Below are positions 3,416 through 54,312 of a DNA stretch of 64,000 bases, piece by piece. Source of the DNA: Pontibacter sp. E15-1 (GTDB lineage Bacteria > Bacteroidota > Bacteroidia > Cytophagales > Hymenobacteraceae); assembly GCF_022601975.1 (NCBI RefSeq), contig NZ_JAKVIR010000025.1, positions 1 through 64,000 of the forward strand, in the 5' to 3' direction. Each line of letters starts with the position of its first letter. Position 1 is the first letter of the stretch. A program made the translations under genes and the position numbers. Under the pieces are notes generated by a model. The model was not told where the DNA came from and did no database searches. It worked only from the letters and a program-made list of their open reading frames with translations.

Positions 3416-3433
3416 CTATCCTGTACTGTCCGG
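3416..3433 (-). promoter_or_regulatory. 18-bp direct-repeat element upstream of GH31
   Basis: In gene orientation it reads CCGGACAGTACAGGATAG and lies 133 nt before the GH31 start codon. It matches the consensus CAGNACAGTNCAGGACAG shared by seven intergenic regions in this window, two 8-bp half-sites repeated at 10-bp spacing. A role as a regulator binding site is inferred. Confidence 0.5.
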
Positions 3434-8298: not shown

Positions 8299-9046
8299 AT
8301 GTCGGTGATTTAGTAGTTAAATTCGTCATAAAATTTTGGTATATGGAGTCTCCATTTCACTTGTTAAGGCTGCGCTGGCATGTCTCATCCTAATCGCGTT
8401 TTAAAACATTGCCATCCCTTCCCTCAAATGCGCTTTTACTCGCTTGTGGCGCTGTGTAGGGCATGCTCGGTTGCCAGAGGGGAATAACTTTAGGTAATGG
8501 AGCGGCGTTCTTTCGCCTATATGCAGCGCCACAGCTTTAGTGGTTTTTGATAAAGTTAACTACTGCCTTCCTGAATTCTATCCTGCTCTATCCTGCTTCA
8601 CTCCTATATTTTTTATTAGCCGACATCATATGTTATGCATGCAGACACATTGTTCTCTGATCTGCCGCAGAGCCTGTATAGCCTTAGGTTTCGCAAAGCA
8701 AGAAGGAATAAAGGACTCCGGTAAGCACTGTTCGCACAAGGCATGTTTTAGTTGAGGGCCTGGCTGCGCCTCTATTAAATGCATACTGCCAATTGCTGCT
8801 ACCCCTTGCCTGAGTTGAGGTAGCAGGCAATACACAGGTTTTTTGCCAACGGGCGCAGGTGCAGGACACTACCGGATAGTTGCAAGAAGAGAATTGCCTA
8901 CTTTTAGAAAGTCCATTCCTCCAGTTCCAAAGCCTACAGCCAAGGCTGGCACAGGAGAGGGTCATGCACCACAGCAGTCTATCGTGCAGTTTGCGCTGCC
9001 CGCTGCGGATGCACCAACAGGAATTTTATCAGCTAAAAAACAGAAA
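8299..9046. other. Divergent intergenic region between susC1 and the permease
   Basis: A 748-nt region between divergent genes. It holds one 18-bp element at 8578-8595 and, close to susC1, a small palindrome (6-bp arms, 8344-8356) that could be an operator. The permease frame stays open back to 8843, but ATG 9047 has the better A-rich leader and a normal family N-terminus. I see no gene or RNA here. Confidence 0.5.
8578..8595 (-). promoter_or_regulatory. 18-bp direct-repeat element upstream of susC1
   Basis: In susC1 orientation it reads CAGGATAGAGCAGGATAG, two near-identical half-sites at 10-bp spacing, 279 nt before the susC1 start. It is one of seven matches to the window consensus. It lies in a divergent region and could also affect the permease at 9047, but its orientation agrees with the minus-strand gene. 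Confidence 0.45.
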
Positions 9047-10456
9047 ATGAAGCAGACCCTTGCCAAGCAGTTAGACGCCATCAATGAGTATGAAAGAGAG
9101 CCAGTGCCGCAGAGCAAGCTGAAAGGCTTGAAGAGCTTCATTGGCATGTATGCCGGAGAGCATACCGCCGGAACGGAGTTTGTCATCGGTCCGTTGTTTG
9201 TCGTGCACGGCGTCACCGCGCCCGACCTGTTCCTTGGGCTGCTGGTGGGCAACCTGCTGGCCGTCCTGAGTTGGGCCTTCCTATGTGCCCCTATCGCAGT
9301 GAAAACCCGCCTCACGCTCTATTTCCAACTGGAGAAGATATGCGGCAAATACCTCGTTTCGGGGTATAATATTGTCAATGCGCTGATGTTCTGCTTTCTG
9401 GCAGGCTCCATGATTGCGGTGGCGGCCACAGCTGTGGGCATCCCGTTCGACATTGCCATGCCCGGCCTGGAAGACATGTACCCGAACAGCGTGGGTTGGA
9501 TGGTAACCGTGTTCTTTGTCGGGGCCGTGATTACGGTGGTCGCTATCCTGGGGTATGAGCAGATCTCGCGGTTCGCCAATGTCTGCGCCCCCTGGATGAT
9601 CCTGGTTTTTATAGCTGCGGCCTTTGCCGTGATGCCTCAGTTGGGCATTACCTCCGTTGGCAGTTTCTGGGAGGTTGCCCAATCCCGCATCTGGACCGGG
9701 GTTCCGGTGGAGGGCTTCAGTAAGTTCACCTTCTGGCATGTCGCTTTTTTTGCCTGGTTTGCCAACATGGCCATGCACATCGGCATGGGCGATTTGTCCA
9801 TCCTCAGATACGCCAAGAAATGGCAGTATGGCTTTGCCTCTACCACCGGTATGTTTCTGGGCCACGTCATCGCCTGGATCGCATCAGGCATACTGGTGGC
9901 CGCCGCCAGCGGGGCTATCACGCCGGGCCCTATTGCCTATAACAGCGCCGGCATAGCAGGTGCCATTTGTGTGATGATCGCGGGCTGGACCACGGCCAAC
10001 CCCACCATATACAGGGCGGGCCTGGCGATACAGTCCATCGTACCCACCGTGAAACGGTGGAAGGTTACGCTGGTCGTGGGACTGGTTACCACAGTGGCAG
10101 CCCTTTTCCCGGCCCTGGTGATGCGCCTCCTGGACTTCGTTGCCCTGTACGGTTTGGTGCTGATGCCAATGGGAGCCATCATCTTCATTGACTTCTACAT
10201 CATCCCGAAACTTGGCCTCCGCAGCAACTACGCGAGTGCGGTGAACTCCCGCTTTAACATAGCGGCGGGCGTCACCTGGATCGCCACCCTGCTGATCTGC
10301 CTGTCCCTGAATTATTTCCAGGGGATAGAGATCTTCTTCCTGGGCCTGCCGGGCTGGTTTATCGCCGCCACGCTATACATTATGCTGAGCAAAGTCTATC
10401 AGCAAAAGCAGACGGCCCCGCACATAATTCGGGAGGTCTCCTCAAGTTCATTTTAA
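9047..10456 (+). CDS. NCS1-type (purine/cytosine permease-like) transporter
   Basis: Polytopic inner-membrane protein of 469 residues with about 12 hydrophobic segments. It resembles the NCS1 nucleobase-cation symporter family: a short cytoplasmic N-terminus with SKLKGLKSFIGMYAGEHTAGTEFVIGP, glycine-rich helices, and a conserved middle part (FFAWFANMAMHIGMGDLSILRYAKKW). The chosen start ATG 9047 follows an A-rich leader (GCTAAAAAACAGAAA). The frame is open upstream to 8843 but that part has no transporter features. It is 30 nt ahead of a small membrane protein and upstream of the kinase-like gene, so the three may form one unit. Known NCS1 substrates are nucleobases, hydantoins and similar compounds. 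Here the context is sugar catabolism, so the true substrate is uncertain. Confidence 0.8.
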   Translation: MKQTLAKQLDAINEYEREPVPQSKLKGLKSFIGMYAGEHTAGTEFVIGPLFVVHGVTAPDLFLGLLVGNLLAVLSWAFLCAPIAVKTRLTLYFQLEKICGKYLVSGYNIVNALMFCFLAGSMIAVAATAVGIPFDIAMPGLEDMYPNSVGWMVTVFFVGAVITVVAILGYEQISRFANVCAPWMILVFIAAAFAVMPQLGITSVGSFWEVAQSRIWTGVPVEGFSKFTFWHVAFFAWFANMAMHIGMGDLSILRYAKKWQYGFASTTGMFLGHVIAWIASGILVAAASGAITPGPIAYNSAGIAGAICVMIAGWTTANPTIYRAGLAIQSIVPTVKRWKVTLVVGLVTTVAALFPALVMRLLDFVALYGLVLMPMGAIIFIDFYIIPKLGLRSNYASAVNSRFNIAAGVTWIATLLICLSLNYFQGIEIFFLGLPGWFIAATLYIMLSKVYQQKQTAPHIIREVSSSSF

Positions 10457-10833: not shown

Positions 10834-12168
10834 ATGATCCCGTGTATCGCCATTTTTCACATCGGCAAGAAAAGCAAAAGGCTGCTGCTCTTTAACCAAT
10901 ACTACCAGGTTGTGAAGGAAGAGCACGCCTGTCCGGCAGAGACAGTGGATGAGGATGGAGACAAGGGAGAGGACCTTGCCGCACTGACGCACTGGCTGCG
11001 CACTGCGTGGGCTGCATTGGAGGCTGACCAGGGGTATGATGTGCTGGCTGTGAACTTCGTGACGTATGGCGCGAGCATGGTGCACCTCAACGAGGATTTC
11101 GCACCGGTAACCCCGCTCTACAGTTATTTAAAAGCATACCCGCAGGAGTTGGAAAAGCAATTTTACGACACGTATGGGCCGAAGCTGCAGCTGGCGGAGC
11201 AAACGGCATCGCCGCCACTGGGTATGCTCAACGCTGGTTTGCAACTCTACTGGCTAAAGCACCTGAAGCCCGCCACATTCCAACGCATCAGGTACTCCCT
11301 GCACCTGCCGCAGTATGTGGCTTACGTGTTTACAGGTCAACTGACCACAGAGTACACGAGCCTGGGCTGCCATACCATGCTTTGGGACTTTCAGGCCCTG
11401 GACTACCACGCATGGGTATACGCCGAGCAACTGGACAAGCTTTTCCCTGCGTTGCGGCAGCATTACCGGCCCCTGCAAACCAATTTCAGGTGCAAGCCCA
11501 TACCCGCTGGCCTGGGCCTGCACGATAGCTCTTCGGCGCTGATCCCGTATTTAAAGCAGTACCGCACCGGCTTTTTGCTACTCTCTGCCGCTACCTGGGG
11601 AATCACCTTAAACCCCTTCGCCAAGGAGCCCTTGAGCCAGGATGATCTGCAGCAGGATTGCCTGCAGTACCTCACGTTTCGGGGCGACAAAGTGAAGGCC
11701 TCCAGGCAATTTATCCAGAACGCGCATGAAGTGCAGGTGAACCGCCTGGCAGCATACTATAACAAACCGCTGACCTATTACCAGACCGTGAGGTATGATG
11801 CCCACCTGACAGAGGAGGCGGTTTTATACGCAGGTTACGCCGATGCGCGCACGCCGATACCGGTGAAAGAGAAGAGAGCGTTGTCCACCCGCTTCGCCTT
11901 AGACTTAGCGTTGCTCAGCACTTACGAGGAAGCGTATCACCGCTTACTGGAGCTGATCGTGCAGCAACAGCTTAACTCGCTGTTTGTGGCAGCAGAGGGA
12001 GACTTGAGCGGGTTCAGAAGCCTGATTGTGGATGGTGACTTCAGCCGGAATGAGCTTTTTATGGCCATGCTACGCCGAAAGTTGCCAAATCTGAAAGTAA
12101 AGTCCGGGCGCTCGGCGCAGGATTCTGCCTTAGGGGCTGCCCTGGCGCTGAATATATGGCCATATTAA
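10834..12168 (+). CDS. FGGY-family rhamnulokinase-like protein with degenerate active site
   Basis: A 444-residue protein that aligns end to end with the intact rhamnulokinase at 48684-50078; shared blocks include LYSYLK.YP.EL..QFYDTYG, LHLPQY, GCHT.LWDFQ and GLHDSS.ALIPYL. The catalytic-base motif HDSS (about residue 229) is kept. Several key motifs are changed relative to the paralogue. The phosphate-binding FDVGKT is FHIGKK (Asp to His at residue 9). STGTWCISLNPF is SAATWGITLNPF. The substrate-loop FFGGYEHE is QFIQNAHE. The adenine-site DGGFSK is DGDFSR. The frame is otherwise intact, so this is not simple random decay. It may be a pseudokinase or a sugar-sensing protein. It converges on a GntR regulator across a shared terminator hairpin, and the neighbouring DNA carries a lutC remnant, so it may derive from a duplicated rhamnose/lut locus. 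Confidence 0.8.
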   Translation: MIPCIAIFHIGKKSKRLLLFNQYYQVVKEEHACPAETVDEDGDKGEDLAALTHWLRTAWAALEADQGYDVLAVNFVTYGASMVHLNEDFAPVTPLYSYLKAYPQELEKQFYDTYGPKLQLAEQTASPPLGMLNAGLQLYWLKHLKPATFQRIRYSLHLPQYVAYVFTGQLTTEYTSLGCHTMLWDFQALDYHAWVYAEQLDKLFPALRQHYRPLQTNFRCKPIPAGLGLHDSSSALIPYLKQYRTGFLLLSAATWGITLNPFAKEPLSQDDLQQDCLQYLTFRGDKVKASRQFIQNAHEVQVNRLAAYYNKPLTYYQTVRYDAHLTEEAVLYAGYADARTPIPVKEKRALSTRFALDLALLSTYEEAYHRLLELIVQQQLNSLFVAAEGDLSGFRSLIVDGDFSRNELFMAMLRRKLPNLKVKSGRSAQDSALGAALALNIWPY

Positions 12169-12313: not shown

Positions 12314-13330
12314 TTACAGGGAGCATCTCCGGATCAGGGTGAACGGATTGTGGACCTTCTCTTTTAGATTTTGCCGCATCAGATAGGCAGCAGTCTCGCC
12401 CATACACTCATGGTCCGTGGACAGCACGGTGATGCCGTTATCCAATATTTCCTTTATAGGCGTGTCGTTGTAGGAAATAACGCCGATGTCTTTCCCCAAG
12501 CGCAACCCCATTTCCCGGCTTTGCTTCACCAGGTCGGCCAGATCAGATTCCTCCAGCACGATAAACCCGGTTCCGGGAGAAAGTGGCTCCTGATGGATAC
12601 AGTTGACCACGGCATGCTCCATGGAAATATCCCTGCAGAACTGCCGGAATCCCTTTACAATTTCAAAGGGGTAAACAATGTCCTTTGGGTATACCAGAAC
12701 AAACTTTTTGTAATTGCTGATCAAATCTTTCCCCGAATGGAGGGCATTGCGAATGTCGTGCTCAAAATCCTGGTAGACCGCTGCATAGTTGCCCGCAAAG
12801 TTCTCGATGTTCTTGTCTAGCACCACCAGTTTTTCGGCAGGGATGTTCTTGATCGCCTCTCTCCCTGCCTCCACATTGGTGGTAAAGTGTGGCATGATCA
12901 CATAATACTGGTATTTCCCGGCATTTTCCTGCAGCATTTTCTGGCAGATCTTCCCGTCGAAATGATGGATTTGCAGGTCTACGATGGCATCCTCCCCGAG
13001 TGATTTGAGGATCGAGTAGTAAACGGTTTTTTTGTAGGCGCTCAGCTTATTGAACAGCAACAATACCCGGATTTTATCGACAGAGAAGTTTTTGCTGATG
13101 TAGCAGCCTTTCCCCTTCACAGAACTAATAACCCCTTTTTTCCGCAGCACTTTATAGGCTTTTTCTATGGTATCGCGCGAGAGGTAGTACATCTCGCTTG
13201 TCTCGTTGATAGAGGGAACGCGTTCGCCAATCTTCAAAACGCCGGCCTCTATGTCTGCAATCACGGCATTGACAACCTGCAGGTATTTAGGAGTGGCGGA
13301 TGTAGCATCAATTCTGTCTAGAAGTTCCAT
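12314..13330 (-). CDS. GntR-type regulator with sugar-binding C-terminal domain (copy 1)
   Basis: Transcription factor of 338 residues. An N-terminal GntR winged helix (ATPKYLQVVNAVIADIEAG, VPSINETSEMYYLSRDTIEKAYKVL) is joined to a periplasmic-binding-protein-like effector domain (VLLLFNKLSAYKKTVYYSILKSLGE, IHHFDG, YYVIMPHF). It ends in FTLIRRCSL. It is clearly paralogous to the regulator at 43777-44799: the same order of motifs, the same VDLQIHH block, and similar RR(C/G)SL endings. The frame could start at 13375, but ATG 13328-13330 gives the normal length. It converges on the kinase-like gene, and a lutC remnant lies upstream. It is a candidate reader of the 18-bp elements in the window; its effector is probably a sugar or phosphorylated sugar (inference). 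Confidence 0.9.
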   Translation of the reverse strand: MELLDRIDATSATPKYLQVVNAVIADIEAGVLKIGERVPSINETSEMYYLSRDTIEKAYKVLRKKGVISSVKGKGCYISKNFSVDKIRVLLLFNKLSAYKKTVYYSILKSLGEDAIVDLQIHHFDGKICQKMLQENAGKYQYYVIMPHFTTNVEAGREAIKNIPAEKLVVLDKNIENFAGNYAAVYQDFEHDIRNALHSGKDLISNYKKFVLVYPKDIVYPFEIVKGFRQFCRDISMEHAVVNCIHQEPLSPGTGFIVLEESDLADLVKQSREMGLRLGKDIGVISYNDTPIKEILDNGITVLSTDHECMGETAAYLMRQNLKEKVHNPFTLIRRCSL

Positions 13331-13966
13331 AACGATAGAGCTTAATATGTATAAACCATTATTACCAGTTATCAAAGCACTGCCAAAAGACAGTTACCTG
13401 TCAATTATACACTTTTTTTCAGCGCAACTAAGCATTTGTGTCCTCTGGTTTATTCCAGAAGACCAAGGCCTGTGAAAGAGTCGACGCTCAGGGTATGCGC
13501 AAACGATTGCGCATACCCTCAAAAAATAATGCCTGCTGGCATCATTCAATGTATAGTTCACAAAAAGTGACTGGTCAATCATTCTTTCGAATCTCAAGAT
13601 AGTCAATTCTTCCAAGTATCAAAAAAATATTAGGCCTCAGCTTTTACTTGGGAAAGCCTTAAACTGTACAACTACGCGAAGAAAACCGTTTGAGCACGCA
13701 CTCCAAAACGGTCGAACATATAATTTATACGCTATAAATTTCTGATATTACAGTATAAAAAAGTGAGGCACATGAACTCAGGATAGAGCTGGACTACCAG
13801 CACAAGCTATGTATACTCACTTATTGCAAGCGTTAAAGGAGGTTGTTCATTGTTGGAAATGCATCACTGACTATCCATATAGTGCAGAATCCAACTGGTA
13901 TAACAATAATGAGCCACAGGAGAAATGCAGAATAGGTTATTCATACCTGCTAATCATGCTGTAAGC

Positions 13967-43507: not shown

Positions 43508-43525
43508 CTGTCATGTACTGTGCTG
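43508..43525 (-). promoter_or_regulatory. 18-bp direct-repeat element upstream of the DUF1080 gene
   Basis: In gene orientation it reads CAGCACAGTACATGACAG, 116 nt before the DUF1080 start. It is one mismatch from the window consensus and in the same relative orientation. Confidence 0.5.
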
Positions 43526-43776: not shown

Positions 43777-44799
43777 CTACAGGGAGCCGCGCCGGATCAC
43801 CTGAAAGGGATTCTTCACTTTCAGGTGCTTGCGCTCCAGCAGTAAAGTGGCTGCCATAAACCCCATCATCTCAAAATCAGTAGTGACAACAGTAATGTCC
43901 AGAAGCTCTTTGGAGGTGGTTTCGTTGAAAGATATAATCCCGATGTCCTGCCCTAAGGTCAGGTCCAGCCCCCGGCTCTTTTTGATGATATCCGCCAGGC
44001 CCGTTTCTTCCACAATCAGATACGCTGTACCCGGGGCCGGAACTTCATCGAAGGTGTTTTCCAGGATACCGAAATCCTTGTTATAGCAGTTGCAGAACAG
44101 CCGGAATCCCTGCATGATCTCCATAGGGTAATGCTCGCCAAAGGGAAATATCAAAACGAGCTTCTGGTATTTAGCCAATAAGTCTACGACTGACTCAAGT
44201 GCTTTGAATATATCCTTGCTGAAATCCTGGTATACGGACAGGTATTTGCCTTCCAGCCCGGGCAGGTCTTTATCCAGGATAACCAGTTCTTCCTTTGGGA
44301 TGCGCTTTATGGTGGGCATGTATTCCCCTTTATCAGCACTATGGAAGAAATGCGGCATGATCACATAATGGTTGTATTTGCCTAAGTTCTTGTTGATGAT
44401 CTCTTCGAACAGGTGCGCATCGTAGTGGTGAATTTGTAAATCAACTGTCGCTTTTTCGCCCAAGCCCTTCAGGAAGGCATAGTAAATAATCTTCTTATAA
44501 GAGCTCAGCTTGTTGAAGACTAAAAGAACTTTGATCTTTTTTATATCATTAGAAGCAACAAAATACCCTTTCCCGTGCACAGAGATAATGTATCCCTGCT
44601 CCTTGAGCTCCCGGTAAGCTCTTTCCACGGTGTCACGCGCAAGCAGGTGCTCCTCACTTAGCTCATTGATCGAAGGCAGCTGCTCATCTACTTTTAGTAT
44701 TCCTCTTTCTATATCATTTATAATCGACTGTATAATCTGCTTGTATTTGGGGGTCTTACAGGAGGGGCTAAGCTTGGTCTGGTACATTATCTTTTGCAT
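43777..44799 (-). CDS. GntR-type regulator with sugar-binding C-terminal domain (copy 2)
   Basis: A 340-residue transcription factor with a GntR winged helix (KTPKYKQIIQSIINDIERG, LPSINELSEEHLLARDTVERAYREL) and a periplasmic-binding-protein-like effector domain (VLLVFNKLSSYKKIIYYAFLKGLGE, VDLQIHHYD, HYVIMPHFFHS), ending FQVIRRGSL. It is a paralogue of the regulator at 12314-13330. It could begin at ATG 44787 instead, four codons later. It lies between the susC3/DUF1080 cluster and the lut-rha operon, so it is placed to control either. It is the best candidate, with copy 1, for the protein that binds the 18-bp elements. Confidence 0.9.
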   Translation of the reverse strand: MQKIMYQTKLSPSCKTPKYKQIIQSIINDIERGILKVDEQLPSINELSEEHLLARDTVERAYRELKEQGYIISVHGKGYFVASNDIKKIKVLLVFNKLSSYKKIIYYAFLKGLGEKATVDLQIHHYDAHLFEEIINKNLGKYNHYVIMPHFFHSADKGEYMPTIKRIPKEELVILDKDLPGLEGKYLSVYQDFSKDIFKALESVVDLLAKYQKLVLIFPFGEHYPMEIMQGFRLFCNCYNKDFGILENTFDEVPAPGTAYLIVEETGLADIIKKSRGLDLTLGQDIGIISFNETTSKELLDITVVTTDFEMMGFMAATLLLERKHLKVKNPFQVIRRGSL

Positions 44800-45984: not shown

Positions 45985-46578
45985 CTATTCCTCCTCTAAA
46001 ATAAACACAGACAGCGTTCTCGCCCCGTGCGCGCCCAGCACCAGCGACTGCTCGATGTCGGCGGTTTTGGAGGGGCCGGCGATGAAGGTGCCGAAGCCGT
46101 ACGCCTGCCCTCCTATGGCCGCGTAGGCCTGGTGCATGAGCGGCACAATGTTTTGCTGCGGAATCACCAGCGCCAGGTGCTGGCAGATAAAGGGCAGCAC
46201 ACGCACCGGCAGTTGCGCATCCGTTACCCACAGGGCACTGTTCTCCGCCACGCCGAACTGGGCGGGCAGAATGGCCAGGTCCACGTCCGCCAGGGTATGC
46301 GGGTCTGCATCCGCCGCCACGGAAACCTCGCCCAGGTCCTTTAACTCCGGAAAGGCAGTGATGACTCTTTTCGCGATGCTGTGCTCCTGCAACAGGATCC
46401 GCTTCACCTCGTCCATACCCTTTACCGGAAAAACCCTGCTTCCGATGCTCACGGCCACGTTTGTGAACTTCTCTACCAGGTCTGCATCCGCTGAAACAAA
46501 GGCAGGAACCTCCGGCATAGGCAAACGGTCCGGTTGGTTTCTGGCCACGGCCGCCAGTATAGTGTCTCTGCTAGGCAT
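45985..46578 (-). CDS. lutC: LutC, LUD-domain lactate utilisation protein
   Basis: A 197-residue LUD-domain protein: MPSRDTILAAVARNQPDRLPMPEVP at the start, DVDLAILPAQFGVAENSALWV in the middle, and [37 protein letters not shown] at the end. LutC is part of the LutABC complex that oxidises L-lactate to pyruvate. ATG 46578 is chosen because it overlaps the lutB stop by 8 nt, giving translational coupling, and matches family length; the frame is open 11 codons further. It is the last gene of the rha-lut operon. A fragment of a second copy is at 13967-14047. Confidence 0.92.
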   Translation of the reverse strand: MPSRDTILAAVARNQPDRLPMPEVPAFVSADADLVEKFTNVAVSIGSRVFPVKGMDEVKRILLQEHSIAKRVITAFPELKDLGEVSVAADADPHTLADVDLAILPAQFGVAENSALWVTDAQLPVRVLPFICQHLALVIPQQNIVPLMHQAYAAIGGQAYGFGTFIAGPSKTADIEQSLVLGAHGARTLSVFILEEE

Positions 46579-47950
46579 GTTTTTCTCTGTTTTTGTGGTA
46601 CCACTCCCCAAAAGACTCTTTCGGGGGTATGGGCATTTCGCGCTGCTTGTACCAGGGGTTCATCTGATTGCTCACCACAAACGGTACATGCCGCATAAAC
46701 CAGCGTCCCGCCTTGCCCGCCAGCCGGAAAGCGGTCGGTGAGGCAAATGCCTGCGTCATGGCCTTCATGCCGAGGGTTTTCTTTCTGTCCGCGTAGCCTT
46801 CCTTCACAATCACCTGCCGCCATTTGTAGAGCTGCTCGTGGATGTCGATCTTCACGGGGCACACGTTGGAGCAGGAGCCGCACAGGGTAGAGGCAAAGGG
46901 CAGGTCGGCGTGCTTCTTCATGTCAAGGTTCGGGGCCAGGATGGAGCCGATCGGGCCGGCCACGGCCGTGTGGTAGCTGTGGCCGCCACTACGCCGGTAT
47001 ACCGGGCAGGTGTTCATGCAGGCGCCGCAGCGAATGCACTTCAGCGAGTTGCGGAAATCCTCGCGGCCCAGCTGCACGCTCCGCCCGTTGTCCACCAGCA
47101 CCAGGTGCAGCTCGTGGCCCGGCCTCGGCTCTCTGAAGTGGCTGGAGTACGTGGTGATCGGCTGCCCCGTGGCGCTCCGGGCAAGCAGCCGCAGGAACAC
47201 GCCCAGGTGCTCCCTTTTCGGGATCAGCTTCTCGATGCCCATGCTGGCGATGTGCACATCGGCCAGGTGCGCACCCATGTCGGCGTTGCCCTCGTTGGTG
47301 CAGATCACGAACTCACCTGTCTCGGCCACCGCGAAGTTCACGCCCGTTAGGGCGGCGCGGCGCGTCAGGAAGGTTTCCCGCAGGTGCTGCCGTGCTGCCT
47401 CTGTCAGCACCTGCGGGTCGGCCATACCGGCGGGTGTGCCGAGGTGCTCATGGAAAAGCTCCCCGATCTCCTCTTTCTTCTTGTGAATGCAGGGTAGCAC
47501 GATGTGGCTTGGCGGCTCCTTGGCCAGCTGCACAATGCGCTCGCCCAGATCCGAGTCAATCACCTCGATGCCCTGCTCGGCCAGGTACTCGTTCAGGTGG
47601 CACTCCTCCGTCAGCATCGACTTGCTTTTCACCATGCGGTCTATCTGGTGCTGCAGCAGGATGCCGTGCACGATGCGGTTGTGCTCGGCGGCATCCGCGG
47701 CCCAATGAACGATGATGCCGTTGGCTTTGGCGTTGGCCTCAAACTGCTGCAGGTAATCGCTCAGGTTCGACAGCACGTGCTGTTTTATCTGGGAGGCTGT
47801 CTCGCGGAGCAGTTCCCAATCGGGTATGGTATGGGCTGCCTTGTCCCGCTTCTGCCGGATGAACCACAGCGTTTCGTCGTGCCAGTCTACCCGTGGCTCA
47901 TCGGCGTTGAACACCTCGGCAAGTGCGGCGTGGTCTTTTGTCTGGCTCAT
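46571..47950 (-). CDS. lutB: LutB, iron-sulfur lactate utilisation protein
   Basis: A 459-residue LutB-type protein with a LUD domain in the first 300 residues (VDWHDETLWFIRQKRDKAAHTIPDWELLR, LTGVNFAVAETGEFVICTNEGNADM). Two 4Fe-4S motifs follow: CIRCGACMNTCPVYRR (about residue 305) and CGSCSNVCPVKIDIHE (about 355). It carries electrons from L-lactate within LutABC. Its ATG overlaps the lutA stop by 4 nt, and its own end overlaps lutC. Confidence 0.95.
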   Translation of the reverse strand: MSQTKDHAALAEVFNADEPRVDWHDETLWFIRQKRDKAAHTIPDWELLRETASQIKQHVLSNLSDYLQQFEANAKANGIIVHWAADAAEHNRIVHGILLQHQIDRMVKSKSMLTEECHLNEYLAEQGIEVIDSDLGERIVQLAKEPPSHIVLPCIHKKKEEIGELFHEHLGTPAGMADPQVLTEAARQHLRETFLTRRAALTGVNFAVAETGEFVICTNEGNADMGAHLADVHIASMGIEKLIPKREHLGVFLRLLARSATGQPITTYSSHFREPRPGHELHLVLVDNGRSVQLGREDFRNSLKCIRCGACMNTCPVYRRSGGHSYHTAVAGPIGSILAPNLDMKKHADLPFASTLCGSCSNVCPVKIDIHEQLYKWRQVIVKEGYADRKKTLGMKAMTQAFASPTAFRLAGKAGRWFMRHVPFVVSNQMNPWYKQREMPIPPKESFGEWYHKNREKHA

Positions 47951-48687
47951 AGCGCTTGGGAGTTAAGGATTTCGGCGATGTGCAGCACCTTTACGTTGCT
48001 TTTCTGCCTTCGGAGAATGCCCTCCATGTGCATCAGGCAGCTCATGTCAGCCGCCGTGATATACTCGGCCCCGTGCTGCAGGTGGTCTGCCACGCGGTCC
48101 TTGCCCATCTTCACCGACACAGCCTCCTCCGCCACGCAGAAAGTACCCCCGAAACCGCAGCATTCGTCTTTCCGGGCAAGCTCGACCAGCTCCAGCCCCT
48201 CCACCATATTCAGCAACTGTTCCGGTTTGGAGAAAGGCGGCGCGACGAGCTCAGACATCTGGGCCAGCTTCAGGCCCCGCTGCCCGTGGCAGCTCTGGTG
48301 CAGGCCCACCCGGTATGGGAAGCGCGCCTGCAGATTGTCCACTTGCAGCACATCCGTCAGGAACTCGATCAGTTCATATATCCTTCCCCGGATGGCCGCA
48401 GCCTCGGCCGGGTGCTTGTCGGAGTGCAGGTGGTCTTTCAGGTGCAGCACGCAACTGCCGGATGGGGCCACGATGTAGTCAAAACCGCTGAAGTTTTGGA
48501 TAAACAGGTCGTTGCTGCCTTTGGTCAGGTGCTCGAAGCCGGAGTTGGCCATGGGCTGTCCGCAGCATGTTTGCCTGGGTGGGTATACCACCTGCACGCC
48601 CTGCTTTTCGAGCAGTTCGAGGGTGGCGACGGCGGCATTGGGGTAAAACTGGTCAACGTAACAAGGGATGAAAAGGCCTACTGTCAT
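47947..48687 (-). CDS. lutA: LutA, CCG-domain lactate utilisation protein
   Basis: A 246-residue protein with two cysteine-rich CCG domains typical of LutA/GlcF/HdrB: TCCGQPMANSGF near residue 42 and DECCGFGGTFCVAEE near residue 170. It works with LutB and LutC in L-lactate oxidation at the membrane. The start ATG overlaps the stop of the rhamnulokinase gene by 4 nt (48684-48687), and its stop overlaps lutB by 4 nt. The coupling with rhaB ties lactate oxidation to rhamnose use. Confidence 0.95.
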   Translation of the reverse strand: MTVGLFIPCYVDQFYPNAAVATLELLEKQGVQVVYPPRQTCCGQPMANSGFEHLTKGSNDLFIQNFSGFDYIVAPSGSCVLHLKDHLHSDKHPAEAAAIRGRIYELIEFLTDVLQVDNLQARFPYRVGLHQSCHGQRGLKLAQMSELVAPPFSKPEQLLNMVEGLELVELARKDECCGFGGTFCVAEEAVSVKMGKDRVADHLQHGAEYITAADMSCLMHMEGILRRQKSNVKVLHIAEILNSQAL

Positions 48688-50078
48688 AATTTGGCGTCGT
48701 GCGTTACCGCATAGTATTTTAACTCGATGATGTCGTTGGGGAGCGGTTTGGTGTTCCAGTGCCGGTGGATGGCCAGGGCAGTGCCGATGGCCGTGGCCTG
48801 TGCCATGGAGGCCGCGAAGACCTCTTTGTCCGGATAGGCGGCGGCCAGTAGGTTCATATAGATAGCATTTTTGCTAAAGCCCCCATCCACAAAAATCCGC
48901 TTCACATCCGAGCCCTCCAAAACAAGTTGCGTGGAGGCAACCTGCTGTGTCACCAGGTCCAGGATAAACTGGTGGTAAGCCTCCGTGTCGGAAGCGAAAG
49001 AGGCCAGATCCCGCTGCGCAAAAACAGACTCCTGTAGCCGGCTTTTAGGGGCCGTAGTGCCCGACACCAGCGCTTGCTCCCGCTGTAGCCTGTTGATGAT
49101 CTCGGGGTCGAACGCGACTGTTTTATAGTGGGCGGCATTTTGGTTAAAATGCGCCGCGATACGCTTTACCTGCTGTTCGTGCTCATACCCCCCAAAGAAC
49201 CTGGATGCCTTTACCGGCTTGCCTTTATACTGCATAAACCTCAGGCAATCCTTCTGCAGGTCCTCCTTTGTGAGCGGTGTTGCATTGAAGGGGTTCAGGC
49301 TGATGCACCAGGTTCCGGTGGAGAGCAGCACAAAGGGCTCCTGAAAGTTCACCAGGTATGGAATCAGGGCCGCTGAGCTGTCGTGCAGGCCAACCCCGAC
49401 CACATAGCTGCTACCCGGAAACGTCGCGGGCACCACGCTATCTGACGGCACCAAAGGCGCCAGCTTCTCCAGCAGCCCCTCCTGCTTTACCCACGCATGG
49501 TAGTTTCCTTTCTGGAAATCCCACAGATTGGTATGGCAGCCGATACTCGTGATATCGGAATACGCTTCCCCCGAGATAAGATAGCTCAAATACTGGGGCA
49601 GGTGGAGGGCATACTTGACCTGTTTGAAAAGGTCTGGCTTCTCGTGTTTCATGCGGTAAAGCTGCATGCCGGAGTTCAGGCTCCCGAGCACCGGCGAGGC
49701 TGTCACTTTCGTGAACTCTTCCTCGCCCCCGTAGGTGTCGTAAAACTGCCTTTGCAGTTCCTCGGGGTATGGCTTCAGGTAACTGTACAAAGGGCAAACC
49801 GGCTTGCCCTCCTCATCGATGCAAACAAAGCTTGCCCCGTATGCGGAGAAGTTGATGGCCTTCACCTCGAACTCCTGCCGTCGGAACACGTCCCGCAGCG
49901 AGTTGTAAACCGACAGCTGCAGGCTCTCCAGGTTTTCGCACGGGAAGCCATCCTCATCCACGATCTCAGTAAAGCGCGCCGACTTCTCGTACACGATTTT
50001 ATAGTGCTCGTCGAAGAGAAACAGTTTCTTGTTTGTCTTCCCTACATCAAAAATGGCGACTACAGGTATCTTTTGCAT
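48684..50078 (-). CDS. rhaB: L-rhamnulokinase (FGGY family)
   Basis: An FGGY-family sugar kinase of 464 residues with all key motifs. The phosphate-binding IFDVGKTNKKL is at the start (Asp11). The catalytic base is in GVGLHDSSAAL (about residue 233). STGTWCISLNPF (about 258), the substrate loop ASRFFGGYEHEQQV (about 300) and the adenine-site IFVDGGFSKNAIYMNLLA (about 398) follow. It phosphorylates L-rhamnulose to L-rhamnulose-1-phosphate with ATP. It starts 2 nt after the rhaI stop and overlaps lutA. A degenerate paralogue is at 10834-12168. L-fuculose cannot be fully excluded, but the neighbours point to rhamnose. Confidence 0.93.
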   Translation of the reverse strand: MQKIPVVAIFDVGKTNKKLFLFDEHYKIVYEKSARFTEIVDEDGFPCENLESLQLSVYNSLRDVFRRQEFEVKAINFSAYGASFVCIDEEGKPVCPLYSYLKPYPEELQRQFYDTYGGEEEFTKVTASPVLGSLNSGMQLYRMKHEKPDLFKQVKYALHLPQYLSYLISGEAYSDITSIGCHTNLWDFQKGNYHAWVKQEGLLEKLAPLVPSDSVVPATFPGSSYVVGVGLHDSSAALIPYLVNFQEPFVLLSTGTWCISLNPFNATPLTKEDLQKDCLRFMQYKGKPVKASRFFGGYEHEQQVKRIAAHFNQNAAHYKTVAFDPEIINRLQREQALVSGTTAPKSRLQESVFAQRDLASFASDTEAYHQFILDLVTQQVASTQLVLEGSDVKRIFVDGGFSKNAIYMNLLAAAYPDKEVFAASMAQATAIGTALAIHRHWNTKPLPNDIIELKYYAVTHDAKL

Positions 50079-50080
50079 GC

Positions 50081-51355
50081 TTACAGGCCAGTTGCGACAG
50101 TCTTCCGTCCACGTTCTTTCACAAGGTTCTCCCGCACTTTCACCTCGCGGAACAGCTGCAGCGGGCGCAGCGCAGCGCCAGCGCGAAGCCGCGCCTCCGC
50201 CACCACTGGGCGCACGTCGGTGCGGTAAGCCTCCTGCAGGATCTCCTGGCAGCGCGCCACGTCGTTTTCCTGCTGGGCCTCCCGCAGCGCCTGCTGGTCT
50301 ACCAGCAGCGCCTGGGTATACGCGATCATGATGGCCTCCACCGACTGCAGCAAATCCTCCAGCGGGTCTTTCACGTTGTGCGAGGCGTCGATCATCCAGG
50401 CCAGGCTCGTGGCGTGGTCCATGCTGCGGGCATCCATCCCGTCAATCAGGCTGCTGAAGATCAGGAACAGCTGGTAAGGCTTGATGCTGCCCGTGGTCAG
50501 GTCGTCGTCGCCGTACTTGGAGTCGTTGAAGTGGAAGCCGCCCAGCTTGCCCTCCATCAGCAGCAGCGACACGATCTGTTCGATGTTGGCGTTGGGCAGG
50601 TGATGCCCCAGGTCCACGAGGGTATAGGCTTTCGGGCCGAGCTTGTTGGCCAGCAGCAGCGACTGCCCCCAGTCGCCCACCGTCATGGAGTAAAAGTTCG
50701 GTTCGAAGGCCTTGTACTCCACAAACACTTTCCAGTCGTCGGGCAGGGCCGCGTATACCTCCTGCAGGCTCTCCAGCGTGTTTTCGAAGGCCTTGCGGAA
50801 GCTGAGCTGCCCCGGAAAGCTGGACCCGTCCGAGAGCCATACCGTCAGTGCGTCAGAGCCCAGTTCCATCCCGTGCCGGATCACCTCGATGTTGTGCTCC
50901 ACCGCCTGCCGGCGCACCGCCTTGTCTACGTGCTGCATGGAGCCAAACTTGTAGCTCAGCGACTGGTCCGCCTGGTCCTGAAAGGTGTTGGAGTTCACGG
51001 CATCGAACCTGAGCCCGTGCTGGGCCGCCAGGGCTTTGATGGCTTTGTAGTCGCTGGGGATGTCCCAGGGGATGTGGAGCGAGATGGACCCGCTGGACTG
51101 GTTCAGGGCGTGCAGCAGGCCCACGTCCTCGATCTTCTCTTCCAGGCTGCGCGGCTCGCCGCCGCCCGGGAAGCGGCCGAAGCGGGTCCCGCCCGTGCCC
51201 AGCGCCCAGCTCGGGATTCCGATCTGGAAATCAACCAGCCGCTGCAGCACGTCGTCCACATTGGCAAGGGAGGAAGCCGCAAACTCATACCTGCGGGTGT
51301 GCTCCTGCGCATGCCGCTGGTTGAACTCGTCTATCTTATATTGTTCTATTTGCAT
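50081..51355 (-). CDS. rhaI: L-rhamnose isomerase, TIM-barrel type
   Basis: A 424-residue xylose-isomerase-like TIM barrel of the RhaI type found in Pseudomonas stutzeri and many Bacteroidota. Landmarks are IGIPSWALGTGGTRFGRFPG near the N-terminus, VWLSDGSSFPGQ, FVEYKAFEPNFYS and LVDLGHHLPNANIEQIV, then KLGGFHFNDSKYGDDDL, which carries metal and substrate contacts. It converts L-rhamnose to L-rhamnulose. It is followed after 2 nt by rhaB and is separated from rhaDE by a family A mobile element (51437-51599), so its transcript may be read through that palindrome or start after it. Confidence 0.94.
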   Translation of the reverse strand: MQIEQYKIDEFNQRHAQEHTRRYEFAASSLANVDDVLQRLVDFQIGIPSWALGTGGTRFGRFPGGGEPRSLEEKIEDVGLLHALNQSSGSISLHIPWDIPSDYKAIKALAAQHGLRFDAVNSNTFQDQADQSLSYKFGSMQHVDKAVRRQAVEHNIEVIRHGMELGSDALTVWLSDGSSFPGQLSFRKAFENTLESLQEVYAALPDDWKVFVEYKAFEPNFYSMTVGDWGQSLLLANKLGPKAYTLVDLGHHLPNANIEQIVSLLLMEGKLGGFHFNDSKYGDDDLTTGSIKPYQLFLIFSSLIDGMDARSMDHATSLAWMIDASHNVKDPLEDLLQSVEAIMIAYTQALLVDQQALREAQQENDVARCQEILQEAYRTDVRPVVAEARLRAGAALRPLQLFREVKVRENLVKERGRKTVATGL

Positions 51356-51436
51356 ACGTTCGTGTTCTTTAATGAAAAGCGTCCAGTGAATTGAAACAAC
51401 CCATATGGTTTCATCTATACTGTCGTTTTATGTTGT

Positions 51437-51599
51437 GTCCCCCTTCGATGGGGGTTGGGGGATGATTACACCTGCGGACAATTTTGTTCAGAATATAGTC
51501 TGCAGCTACTTACAATTAAGTCAAAGCTTTTAAATGCTCCTATCGTTTCTCATCCCCCTACCCCCTTCTTTGTCGAGGGCCCCTACCCCCAAGGGGGAC
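51437..51599 (-). repeat. MITE-like palindromic repeat, family A, copy 2 (inverted)
   Basis: A 163-bp element starting GTCCCC and ending GGGGAC, flanked on both sides by TTGT (51433-51436 and 51600-51603), a 4-bp target-site duplication. Its right arm is the reverse complement of the left arm of the copy at 61791, so it is in the opposite orientation. The centre is diverged. It sits between rhaDE and rhaI in the rhamnose operon, where its strong folding could affect read-through. Confidence 0.8.
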
Positions 51600-51640
51600 T
51601 TGTCCATATGGTGTACTTTTTGAAAGCTTTACTTTTATAG

Positions 51641-53767
51641 TTACCGCACAAAGGCCATGGCCACGCCGCCGTCCACGTTCAGCACGTTGCCGGTGGACTT
51701 GCTGAGCAGCCCGCCCACGAAGGCGAAGCAGGCGTTGGCAATATCCTCGGGCAGGATAATCTCGTTGAGCAGCGTGCGCTTGGCATAGTATGCAGGCAGC
51801 TCCTCCACTTTCACACCATATGCTTTGGCGCGGCCCTCGGCCCAGCCACCGGCCCAGATGTTGCTGTCGCTGATCACGGCGTCGGGGTTCACCACGTTCA
51901 CGCGGATGCTGTCCCCGCCGAGCTCTGCTGCATTCAAGCGGCTCAGGTGCAACTGCGCGGCTTTGGCTGAGCCATAGCCCGCGTTGTTCGGGCCCGACAC
52001 CAGCGCGTTCTTGCTCACGATGTTGAGCACGTCGCCGCCGATGTCCTGCTTGCGCATTACCTCCACGCCCGCTTGCGTCACCAGAAACTGCCCCTTCACC
52101 AGCACGTCGTAGAGCAGGTCCCAGTCTTTTTCGGAGTGGTCCTCAATGGACTTGGAGATGGAAAGGCCGGCGTTGTTCACCACGATGTCCACTCCCCCGA
52201 AGGCGAGGGCGGCCGCTTCAAATGCCTCTTGTATCTGGCCACCCCTGGTCACGTCCAGTTCGGCAGTGGCATAGCTGTCTTTGCCGTATTGCGCTCTAAA
52301 CTCCTCGCTGGCATGCTGGAGGCGCTCCTGGTTCATGTCGTTGAGCACCACCACGGCGCCTTCCTCCACAAACCTTTTGGCGATGGCCTTTCCGATGCCA
52401 CCGGCACTGCCCGTGATGAGCGCGATTCTGCCGGATAGGGCTTTGGGCTTGGGCATGCGCTGCAGCTTTGCTTCCTCCAGCAGCCAATACTCAATGTCAA
52501 AGGCCTCCTGGCGCGGCAGCGAGGTATACTCCGAAATCGCCTCGGCCCCTTTCATCACGTTGATGGCGTTGGTATAAAACTCGGAGGCCACCCGTGTCGT
52601 CTGCTTGTCTTTGGAGAAGGAGAACATGCCCACACCCGGATACAGTATAATCACGGGGTTTTTGTCTCGAACAGCCGGGCTGTTGGGGTGCTTGTGGTTC
52701 TCGTAGTAGTCGGCGTATAGCTGGCGGTATGCCGCGAAGGCAGGGGCCAGTCGCTCTTTCAGCGCCTGCACATCCGACAGGTCCTCGTCCGGCTTCAGGT
52801 CGAGCACCAGCGGGCTGATCTTCGTGCGCAGGAAGTGGTCGGGGCAGCTGGTGCCCATCGGGGCCAGCCTGTCCAGGTCGTTGGAGTTGATGAACTCGAG
52901 CACGCGGTCATCGTCGGTGAAGTGGCCGACCATGTGGCGCTCGCTGGAGCAGAAGCCGCGCAGCACCGGGGCCAGCGCGGCAGCCTGCTTTTTGCGAGCC
53001 GCCTCGTCCAGGCTCTGTATCCGGGCACCGCCGAAAACAGGGCCTTTCTTGCCGTAGTGTTGCTCCAGGTACTCGGCGCAGCGCTCGATCACCTCCAGGG
53101 TATTGATATAGCTTTCGTAGGCCGTGTCGCCCCAGGTGAACAGGCCGTGCGAGCCCAGCATGATGCCCCGGATGCCCGGGTTCTCGTCGAGGCACTGGCG
53201 CAGCTGCAGCCCCAGGTCGAAGCCCGGGCGCTGCCAGTCTACCCACCCGATGGTTCCGTCAAAGAGCTCCTCGGTTATCTTCTTGCCGTCTTTGGCGGCG
53301 GCAATGGCGATGGCCGCGTCCGGGTGCAGGTGGTCGATGTGCCTGAAGGGCAGGAAACCGTGCAGCGGCGTGTCGATGGAGGGTGCCTTGGAGCTCAGGT
53401 CAAAGATGCTGTGGTTGAAGAGTTCCACCATCTCATCCTCGTGCGCTATGCCCCGGTACACGTTCTTCAGGCTCCGCAGCCGGTCCACGTACAAAGCGGC
53501 CAGACCGCTGCGCTTGAGCGTTCCTAAGTCGCCGCCCGAGCCCTTCACCCACATCACCTCCGTCTCCTGGCCGGTGAGCGGGTCTTTGGCCATGGCCTTG
53601 CAGGAGGTGTTGCCCCCGCCGTAGTTAGTCAGCCGCAGGTCGGCCCCCAGCAGGTTCGATCGGTAGATCAGCAGCCCCACCTCATCGCCGGCAAACTTTG
53701 CGGCTTCTTCTTCCTCCCACAAATAGCTTACATGCTTGAATTCTGTTTTCGTCGTCGATTCTAACAT
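51641..53767 (-). CDS. Bifunctional rhamnulose-1-phosphate aldolase / short-chain dehydrogenase
   Basis: A 708-residue fusion. The N-terminal part (to about residue 430) is a class II aldolase/adducin-type domain (LTNYGGGNTSCKAM, DTPLHGFLPFRHIDHLHPDA with zinc histidines, GIMLGSHGLFTWGD). The C-terminal part is an SDR domain (ITGSAGGIGKAIAKRF near 454, NNAGLS, IVSKNAL and the catalytic GYGSAKAAQ near 597, ending VLNVDGGVAMAFVR). It splits L-rhamnulose-1-phosphate into DHAP and L-lactaldehyde and then oxidises the aldehyde, probably to L-lactate for LutABC. ATG 53765-53767 is chosen; an in-frame ATG at 53827 would add 20 residues unlike the family. It is the first gene of the rhamnose operon and has an 18-bp element upstream. 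Confidence 0.93.
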   Translation of the reverse strand: MLESTTKTEFKHVSYLWEEEEAAKFAGDEVGLLIYRSNLLGADLRLTNYGGGNTSCKAMAKDPLTGQETEVMWVKGSGGDLGTLKRSGLAALYVDRLRSLKNVYRGIAHEDEMVELFNHSIFDLSSKAPSIDTPLHGFLPFRHIDHLHPDAAIAIAAAKDGKKITEELFDGTIGWVDWQRPGFDLGLQLRQCLDENPGIRGIMLGSHGLFTWGDTAYESYINTLEVIERCAEYLEQHYGKKGPVFGGARIQSLDEAARKKQAAALAPVLRGFCSSERHMVGHFTDDDRVLEFINSNDLDRLAPMGTSCPDHFLRTKISPLVLDLKPDEDLSDVQALKERLAPAFAAYRQLYADYYENHKHPNSPAVRDKNPVIILYPGVGMFSFSKDKQTTRVASEFYTNAINVMKGAEAISEYTSLPRQEAFDIEYWLLEEAKLQRMPKPKALSGRIALITGSAGGIGKAIAKRFVEEGAVVVLNDMNQERLQHASEEFRAQYGKDSYATAELDVTRGGQIQEAFEAAALAFGGVDIVVNNAGLSISKSIEDHSEKDWDLLYDVLVKGQFLVTQAGVEVMRKQDIGGDVLNIVSKNALVSGPNNAGYGSAKAAQLHLSRLNAAELGGDSIRVNVVNPDAVISDSNIWAGGWAEGRAKAYGVKVEELPAYYAKRTLLNEIILPEDIANACFAFVGGLLSKSTGNVLNVDGGVAMAFVR

Positions 53768-54312
53768 ATGTTCAGAAATTATAATTGCTTTTTTTAATGG
53801 ATGAAATTTACAACGCGCTATAGCCAAGCGCTAAAGACTGTATGTTGGGGCTTGCCATACCCCTCAGCAGCACCGGGCATATACTATCGGCCTGTCTTTC
53901 TGTGAGCACTTCTAATTATTTTCTTTGACTCCACGAAAGCCTGCAAAAACGCAGGCCACGTACTCCATTGCAGCCACACCGCCTATCCGGAGAAAATGCC
54001 AGCGCGTATGCTCAGCTTTATCCGGTGGTGTGATTGATAGCCCTAAATTAAGAAGGAGAAAGCCAAATACTGTCCTGCACTGTCATGCTCAGCCAGGCAT
54101 CGCTTCGCCGCTTAAAGCATGCTTGCATTTGATGTGTTGGGCTGCAAATTGTCCGTAATGGGACCTGACTCCGCATATTCCGCTTCTAAAAACGAAATTA
54201 ACCATACGCCTCGGTGGGCAGGGGTATGGATGGCCCAACAAAAGTATTTTGTCGCCGCCCTGCCCTAAAAGCTTGCATATATTCTGCGCGGGGCTTAATT
54301 TGCCGTCAGTTT
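53768..54312. other. rhaDE leader region
   Basis: 545 nt between rhaDE (minus strand) and tRNA-Pro (plus strand). It contains the 18-bp element at 54070-54087. I see no gene; short open frames here have no recognisable features. Confidence 0.5.
54070..54087 (-). promoter_or_regulatory. 18-bp direct-repeat element upstream of rhaDE
   Basis: In gene orientation it reads CATGACAGTGCAGGACAG, 302 nt before the rhaDE start. It is one mismatch from the window consensus and links the rhamnose operon to the same putative regulon as the three SusC operons. Confidence 0.5.

Follow-up and report, generated by a model that had tools for sequence, protein, structure and literature searches.

A gene of the rhamnulokinase family, at positions 10834-12168 of the forward strand in the 64,000-nucleotide stretch of Pontibacter DNA analysed here (the window), has undergone a lineage-specific loss of conserved residues that is concentrated in its ATP motifs, with its reading frame kept and the rest of the protein under constraint. 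We propose that its product is a former rhamnulokinase that lost its ATP site and was kept for a non-catalytic role involving the binding of a sugar, a reading to which we give a probability of about 0.5. The parts of this proposal are of unequal strength: the protein is very probably dead as a kinase, the gene is likely to be kept rather than decaying, and a regulatory role based on sugar binding is put forward tentatively, at somewhat less than even odds.

The gene and its family

The frame starts with ATG and runs uninterrupted for 444 codons, as stated in an earlier note on this DNA. Its product belongs among the FGGY carbohydrate kinases, in the rhamnulokinase group of Bacteroidota; it matches the Pfam family FGGY_N at 33.9 bits, over the cut-off of 28.8, and FGGY_C_2 at 26.5 bits, marginally below the cut-off of 27, and the nearest solved structures by sequence are FGGY kinases. 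There is one clear paralogue in the same genome, an intact RhaB (48684-50078, reverse strand) which is 44% identical to the window protein, a third match being weak and short. The NCBIfam rhamnulokinase equivalog model, with its cut-off of 527.95, cannot tell live from dead proteins in this clade, because this intact RhaB (72.9 bits) fails it as well as the window protein (34.6 bits).

An AlphaFold model based on an alignment of 51 sequences has a mean pLDDT of 89.9, to be read with the caution that a model built with homologues would probably display the fold of the family even if the changes were harmful, and leaves the stability of the protein unproven. Its top structural match, from end to end, is 3h6e (Z 35.7, rmsd 2.5, 401 aligned residues), followed by E. 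coli rhamnulokinase 2cgk over its full length (VIA-align Z 32.6, rmsd 3.6, 414 aligned). The former, an FGGY carbohydrate kinase of Novosphingobium aromaticivorans and the nearest solved structure by both sequence and fold, keeps DLGKT and STGTW, unlike the window protein. The adenosine motif of 3h6e is irregular as well (LVEGRF). With E. coli RhaB (EC 2.7.1.5, 2cgj/2cgk) the window protein has in common the two-domain FGGY fold and the HD motif, and its orthologues lie in rha gene clusters; it differs in being without the nucleotide-site residues, at 16% identity.

Losses in the ATP motifs

Where most relatives read FDIGKTNKK at the phosphate-1 motif, the window protein reads FHIGKKSKR (D9H, T13K, N14S and K16R; 10858-10881, forward strand, as are all the positions that follow in this paragraph). 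The phosphate-2 motif STGTW has become SAATW through T252A and G253A (11587-11592), T254 and W255 being retained; FIGNxHE of the genus orthologues is altered to FIQNAHE by G295Q (11716-11718); the adenosine motif VDGGFS reads VDGDFS through G402D (12037-12039); and AQGTALG reads AQDSALG through G430D and T431S (12121-12126). The motif H230-D231-S232 is retained (11521-11529), and its first two residues correspond in an alignment to the HD of E. coli RhaB (2cgj), the Asp of which we take to be the catalytic base. Presumably, going by the FGGY motifs, D9, T13, N14, K16, T252, G253, G295 and G402 make up the ATP and magnesium site, and the mapping of each residue to a contact with ATP is likewise our assumption. 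A working rhamnulokinase would need intact phosphate-1, phosphate-2 and adenosine motifs; eight of the 18 conserved ATP-motif columns are changed here, a loss of catalytic or nucleotide-site residues that is one of the marks of a pseudokinase. The letters that had first drawn attention to the gene (FHIGKK, AATW within SAATW, IQNAHE, DGDFS and the kept HDSS) all read as reported, and N14S, K16R, T252A and the pair G430D/T431S come in addition. The replacement of GGYEHE by IQNAHE, listed then as a loss, has the right letters and is mostly a difference between subfamilies: the genus orthologues have IGNxHE, and the true loss is that of Gly295 to Gln only. Pairs of local frameshifts were considered as a source of the odd motifs, and none was found in the six motif stretches aligned codon by codon, where the changes are plain substitutions.

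The distribution of these changes can be set against what the family conserves. Among 127 family relatives, conservation reaches 97% or more in 67 columns, and the window protein departs from them at eight, all within the 18 columns of the ATP motifs and none within the other 49 (hypergeometric P 6.7e-6), the motif windows (residues 8-19, 250-255, 293-299, 399-407 and 429-434) having been set from FGGY/ASKHA motifs after the earlier note was known, hence not blind. With windows 293-299 and 429-434 removed, seven of the eight departures fall in 15 of the 67 columns (P 5.2e-5), and a larger set of 184 distinct proteins, with 17 of 64 columns in ATP motifs, gives P 5.5e-6. From the 127-protein set eight 4-kb loci that duplicate longer ones were removed, so that other identical proteins may remain in it; the larger set collapses identical ones. 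The incomplete protein L101 was left out, as was L099, which gave no frame (one of the 80 named loci).

The 127 base proteins have 54 departures between them, eight of which are in ATP motifs, and 172 of 177 distinct base proteins have none in these motifs, the remaining five having one each. Seven proteins were set apart before these base counts were made, with the following number of ATP-motif departures: eight in the window protein, five each in G247 and G298, two each in G273, the second copy of G040 and the locus-A copy of G069, and zero in the copy of G255. A search of the whole order returned matches in 166 of 390 genomes; beyond the loci already in the set, 60 more among the matches listed were examined, all 60 having a full frame, and the number of ATP-damaged relatives is to be understood as at least that given here. 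When the columns are taken instead as those identical in all eight other genus orthologues, the concentration is weak: seven of 32 changed in ATP motifs against 16 of 166 elsewhere (P 0.054).

The view that the losses are focused on catalytic motifs thus holds, since all eight deep departures lie in ATP motifs. The accompanying statement that residues of the substrate loop had gone is not supported: all 49 conserved columns outside the ATP motifs, His230-Asp231-Ser232 included, are retained, whichever of them touch the sugar. One might still see in the protein a slow or specialized kinase, with an altered geometry of the nucleotide pocket or another phosphoryl donor, given that it retains K15, T254, N406 and Asp231, the residue aligned with the Asp of the HD in RhaB. 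The change of Asp9 to His and of Thr13 to Lys, together with the side chains introduced at Gly253, Gly295 and Gly402, in columns that are otherwise almost invariant, makes this improbable, and residual kinase activity is less likely than the decay of the gene, to which we come below.

Orthologues and ancestral role

The gene is present in nine of 50 genomes of the genus, its own included (E <= 1e-120), and in 16 of 204 genomes of the family, of which seven belong to a sister genus. The eight other genus orthologues are 58-66% identical to the window protein, and six of them adjoin RhaI, the L-rhamnose isomerase gene, which makes the window gene an orthologue of operon-borne rhamnulokinases. 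They read FDIGKTNKK, STGTW, FIGNxHE, VDGGFS and AQGTALG with few exceptions, namely N14T, D400E and G402S (VEGSF) in G069, and T252S (SSGTW) in G064 and G025. Because these eight are intact or nearly so, the main losses are derived and specific to the window lineage among the genomes examined. It had been suggested that one should see whether the same substitutions are fixed in orthologues; they are absent from the eight of the genus, and neither the 50 genus genomes nor the 204 family genomes yielded a second carrier of these losses.

The gene order around these orthologues is informative. It is NCS1 transporter, aldolase-dehydrogenase, RhaI and kinase in G022, G019 and G026; aldolase-dehydrogenase, RhaI and kinase in G028 and G068; NCS1, RhaI and kinase in G069; and NCS1, kinase and GntR regulator with a SusC/SusD pair in the window, G064 and G025. 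By family matches the aldolase-dehydrogenase combines Aldolase_II with adh_short, and a fusion of this kind is described as RhaEW in PMC3870299. In G022, G028, G019, G068 and G026, a search at E <= 1e-5 finds no RhaB-like match besides this gene, which is accompanied by one RhaEW-type aldolase and RhaI, and we conclude from this that its ancestral role was that of a kinase: the gene was, in all likelihood, formerly a working rhamnulokinase.

The window genome, G064, G025 and G069 contain in addition a second rhamnose operon, which we call operon B, the locus of the window gene being locus A. In the window it spans 45985-53827 on the reverse strand, with the intact RhaB (77-79% identical to its counterparts in the latter three genomes), a RhaI (50081-51355, reverse strand, for which the top model is L_rham_iso_rhiz at 491 bits, under a cut-off of 647) and, by family matches, a RhaEW-like aldolase fused to a short-chain dehydrogenase (51641-53827, reverse strand). 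The locus-A kinase is redundant in the lineages with operon B. In G069 (L106 and L164), RhaI lies in locus A and none was seen in a 20-kb stretch around operon B, and the locus-A kinase has N14T, D400E and G402S; the whole looks like an intermediate state. Horizontal replacement as the reason for the long branch of the window gene is unlikely, because its neighbours are common to G064 and G025 (NCS1 86%, GntR 81% and SusC 73-80% identical). A search of plasmids (E <= 1e-30) returned just two Persicobacter records, at 37% identity.

We may picture the history of the gene as follows. The ancestor would have had a working rhamnulokinase in a complete operon (NCS1, RhaEW-type aldolase, RhaI and kinase). 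The window lineage also has a second complete operon, B, with its own RhaB, and a locus A reduced to NCS1, kinase and GntR; the kinase, freed of its metabolic duty, would have lost its ATP and magnesium site and retained its frame and the other deeply conserved positions, HDSS among them.

Decay or constraint

The obvious alternative is that redundancy with operon B led to simple decay, and that we witness an early pseudogene yet to meet its stop codon. We consider this unlikely, and the matter deserves a detailed discussion because the gene is the single carrier of these losses among the genomes examined, which leaves decay its place. Codon models, run with our own likelihood script on a fixed topology taken from the gene tree (relevant nodes at 37-71% support), gave in a two-ratio setting an estimate of 0.068 for omega on the branch of the window gene and rejected omega = 1 (2dlnL 87.0); the estimate is poorly fixed, since dS on this branch is saturated, and it averages the periods before and after the loss. 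With dS fixed at six settings between 0.8 and 4.0, the best omega went from 0.25 to 0.05. The two-ratio models were dropped as proof of relaxation: because of the saturation of dS, the branch could not be told from the background (2dlnL 0.6), and a four-taxon fit gave an absurd branch length of 13.08. Codon models being uninformative on relaxation, we relied on conserved columns, relative-rate tests and simulation.

The gene does evolve faster. Measured against the adjacent NCS1 gene, its dN is 4.26 on the window branch and 1.32-3.19 on the others. With G019 as the outgroup, the window protein and that of G064 differ by 10 to 0 replacements in the ATP motifs and by 55 to 21 elsewhere (Tajima chi2 15.2), and the comparison with G069 gives 8 to 1 and 58 to 33 (chi2 6.9). 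Replacements outside the ATP motifs have thus accumulated at 1.8 to 2.7 times the rate of the sisters, as expected of partial relaxation, and this counts in favour of decay. To the same side belong the redundant copy of G069, altered at conserved sites (N14T, H157L, D400E, G402S and Q379L), and a second copy in G040 (L115, 7816-10577), which has S232T, G253D, G402S and N406H, and the locus of which is likely to be in decay, as the neighbouring NCS1 frame is shortened to 351 amino acids.

Neutral evolution nevertheless fails to give what is seen here, eight of 18 ATP columns changed against none of the 49 others. The joint outcome of at least eight ATP hits, no other hit and no stop was met in 0 of 4000 simulations at every one of nine mutation levels. 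When 2000 neutral runs were continued until eight ATP hits had occurred, an average of 20.0 other conserved columns were hit, never fewer than two, and stop mutations numbered 16.3 on average, some runs having none. If we consider only the 34 non-ATP replacements in excess over G064, equivalent to some 60 neutral mutations, the probability that all 49 columns survive is 0.011, and that of meeting no stop is 0.065. The claim that the frame is kept under constraint is borne out by these simulations, together with the rejection of omega = 1. Intact orthologues combined with relaxed selection had been named as the mark of simple decay: the orthologues are indeed intact or nearly so, and evolution outside the ATP motifs is faster, but omega = 1 is rejected and decay does not reproduce the pattern. 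On selection after the loss, which a pseudokinase should display, the absence of hits in the 49 other columns and the rejection of omega = 1, which applies to the whole branch, bear only indirectly, for a single carrier of the losses.

The neighbourhood and the putative regulon

If the former rhamnulokinase is indeed kept, its neighbours may tell us what for. Upstream of it is an NCS1-type, cytosine-permease-like transporter gene (9047-10456, forward strand; start set by homology, the longest open reading frame beginning too early, at 8843), which also adjoins the kinase gene in G064 and G025 and belongs to the rha gene cluster in G022, G019, G026 and G069. Its product may be a transporter of L-rhamnose so far undescribed, and in the open literature no paper was found that links a cytosine permease to rhamnose in Bacteroidetes. 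Such an NCS1 transporter, without a Pfam match, also accompanies the rhamnulokinase gene in 12 of the 80 named loci. The convergent neighbour on the other side encodes a GntR regulator with a LacI-like sensor domain (12314-13375, reverse strand; 81% identical in G064 and G025, 67% in G019), which adjoins the kinase gene in these three genomes too, an association only. A second GntR regulator of the same build lies at 43777-44799, each rhamnose locus having one beside it, and the G064 and G025 counterparts of the regulator at 12314-13375 share 49% identity with this second one.

Between SusC and NCS1 (8578-8595, forward strand), a motif search identified a putative operator, CTRTCCTGNACTGTNCTG, a tandem motif with a 10-bp period. 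Seven sites match the pattern used, CTATCCTGNNCTATCCTG, with at most three mismatches, against 0.43 expected, and none of 100 shuffles reached seven; a matrix derived from the seven adds an eighth, at 43508, after which the next best score drops from 23.1 to 12.9. The other putative sites, from the motif search or the matrix, are at 3416, 8862, 14163, 31988, 42513 and 54070. Judging by position, the sites are upstream of SusC-like genes, NCS1, the RhaEW operon, a GH31 enzyme, a cytochrome-type protein and a 3-keto-disaccharide-hydrolase-like protein; none is directly upstream of the kinase gene in a scan of the window. In each of the eight other genus loci that were scanned, sites scoring at least 19.3 lie close to NCS1 or RhaEW, and among three loci scanned outside the genus, L114 and L028 had none above the threshold and L037 had one at 19.6. 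The eight-site motif is apparently an operator of the rhamnose regulon. As it is found at both NCS1 and the RhaEW operon, locus A still looks part of this regulon.

In our proposal the protein would fold and would still bind L-rhamnulose or a related ketose in its cleft, with no productive binding of ATP-Mg. It might then perform non-catalytic work in the rhamnose regulon, reporting the sugar to GntR or NCS1, or pairing with RhaB. The last possibility, taken as a full alternative in which the dead copy would bind and tune the active RhaB of operon B instead of sensing for GntR or NCS1, is suggested by analogy: live and dead paralogues are together in one genome, and PMC5201418 and PMC3663545 describe catalytically dead enzyme paralogues that can activate live ones. 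We regard it as the most improbable of the readings considered, the gene having remained by NCS1 and GntR and not by RhaB.

Relation to known systems

Relatives of sugar kinases with non-catalytic jobs are already known. Yeast Gal3, of the GHMP family, has a role outside sugar phosphorylation. So have the plant FRUCTOKINASE-LIKE 1 and 2 proteins (PMC3409070), of the pfkB family. Both cases put the scaffold of a sugar kinase to non-catalytic use, as proposed for the window protein, and both belong to kinase families other than FGGY. The open literature searched yielded no paper on a rhamnose regulon that retains an FGGY rhamnulokinase in dead form. The comparison within one genus, where the gene is the sole rhamnulokinase found in five species, redundant with most motifs kept in three, and deprived of its ATP side only in one, allows a direct test of the passage from a metabolic kinase to a non-catalytic protein. 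Were the dead form a sugar sensor, the rhamnose regulon would have a second layer of sensing, and the automatic naming of such genes as rhamnulokinase would be wrong.

Other relatives with an altered ATP site

Two further proteins, from G247 and G298 (one genus, in another family of the order; L161 and L165), have T13I, N14Q, S251G, G253D, G402E and N406D, plus three departures elsewhere. A RhaI homologue lies close to their gene, and neither genome has a RhaEW match at E <= 1e-100. Since they split, nine nonsynonymous and 53 synonymous codon differences have arisen between them (omega 0.051; omega = 1 rejected, 2dlnL 99.6), and as both have the same changed motifs, purifying constraint acted on the damaged form; this lineage therefore displays strong purifying selection after the loss. 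It is conceivable, if rather doubtful, that rhamnulokinases of Bacteroidota turned more than once into ATP-less, sugar-binding proteins acting non-catalytically in sugar regulons, by NCS1 and GntR in the window lineage and by a RhaI homologue in that of G247 and G298; such a repeated conversion, if true, would be a bacterial counterpart of the split between Gal1 and Gal3 in yeast. A relative at 59% identity to the pair, in G273, has T13I and F403Y and keeps G253, G402 and N406.
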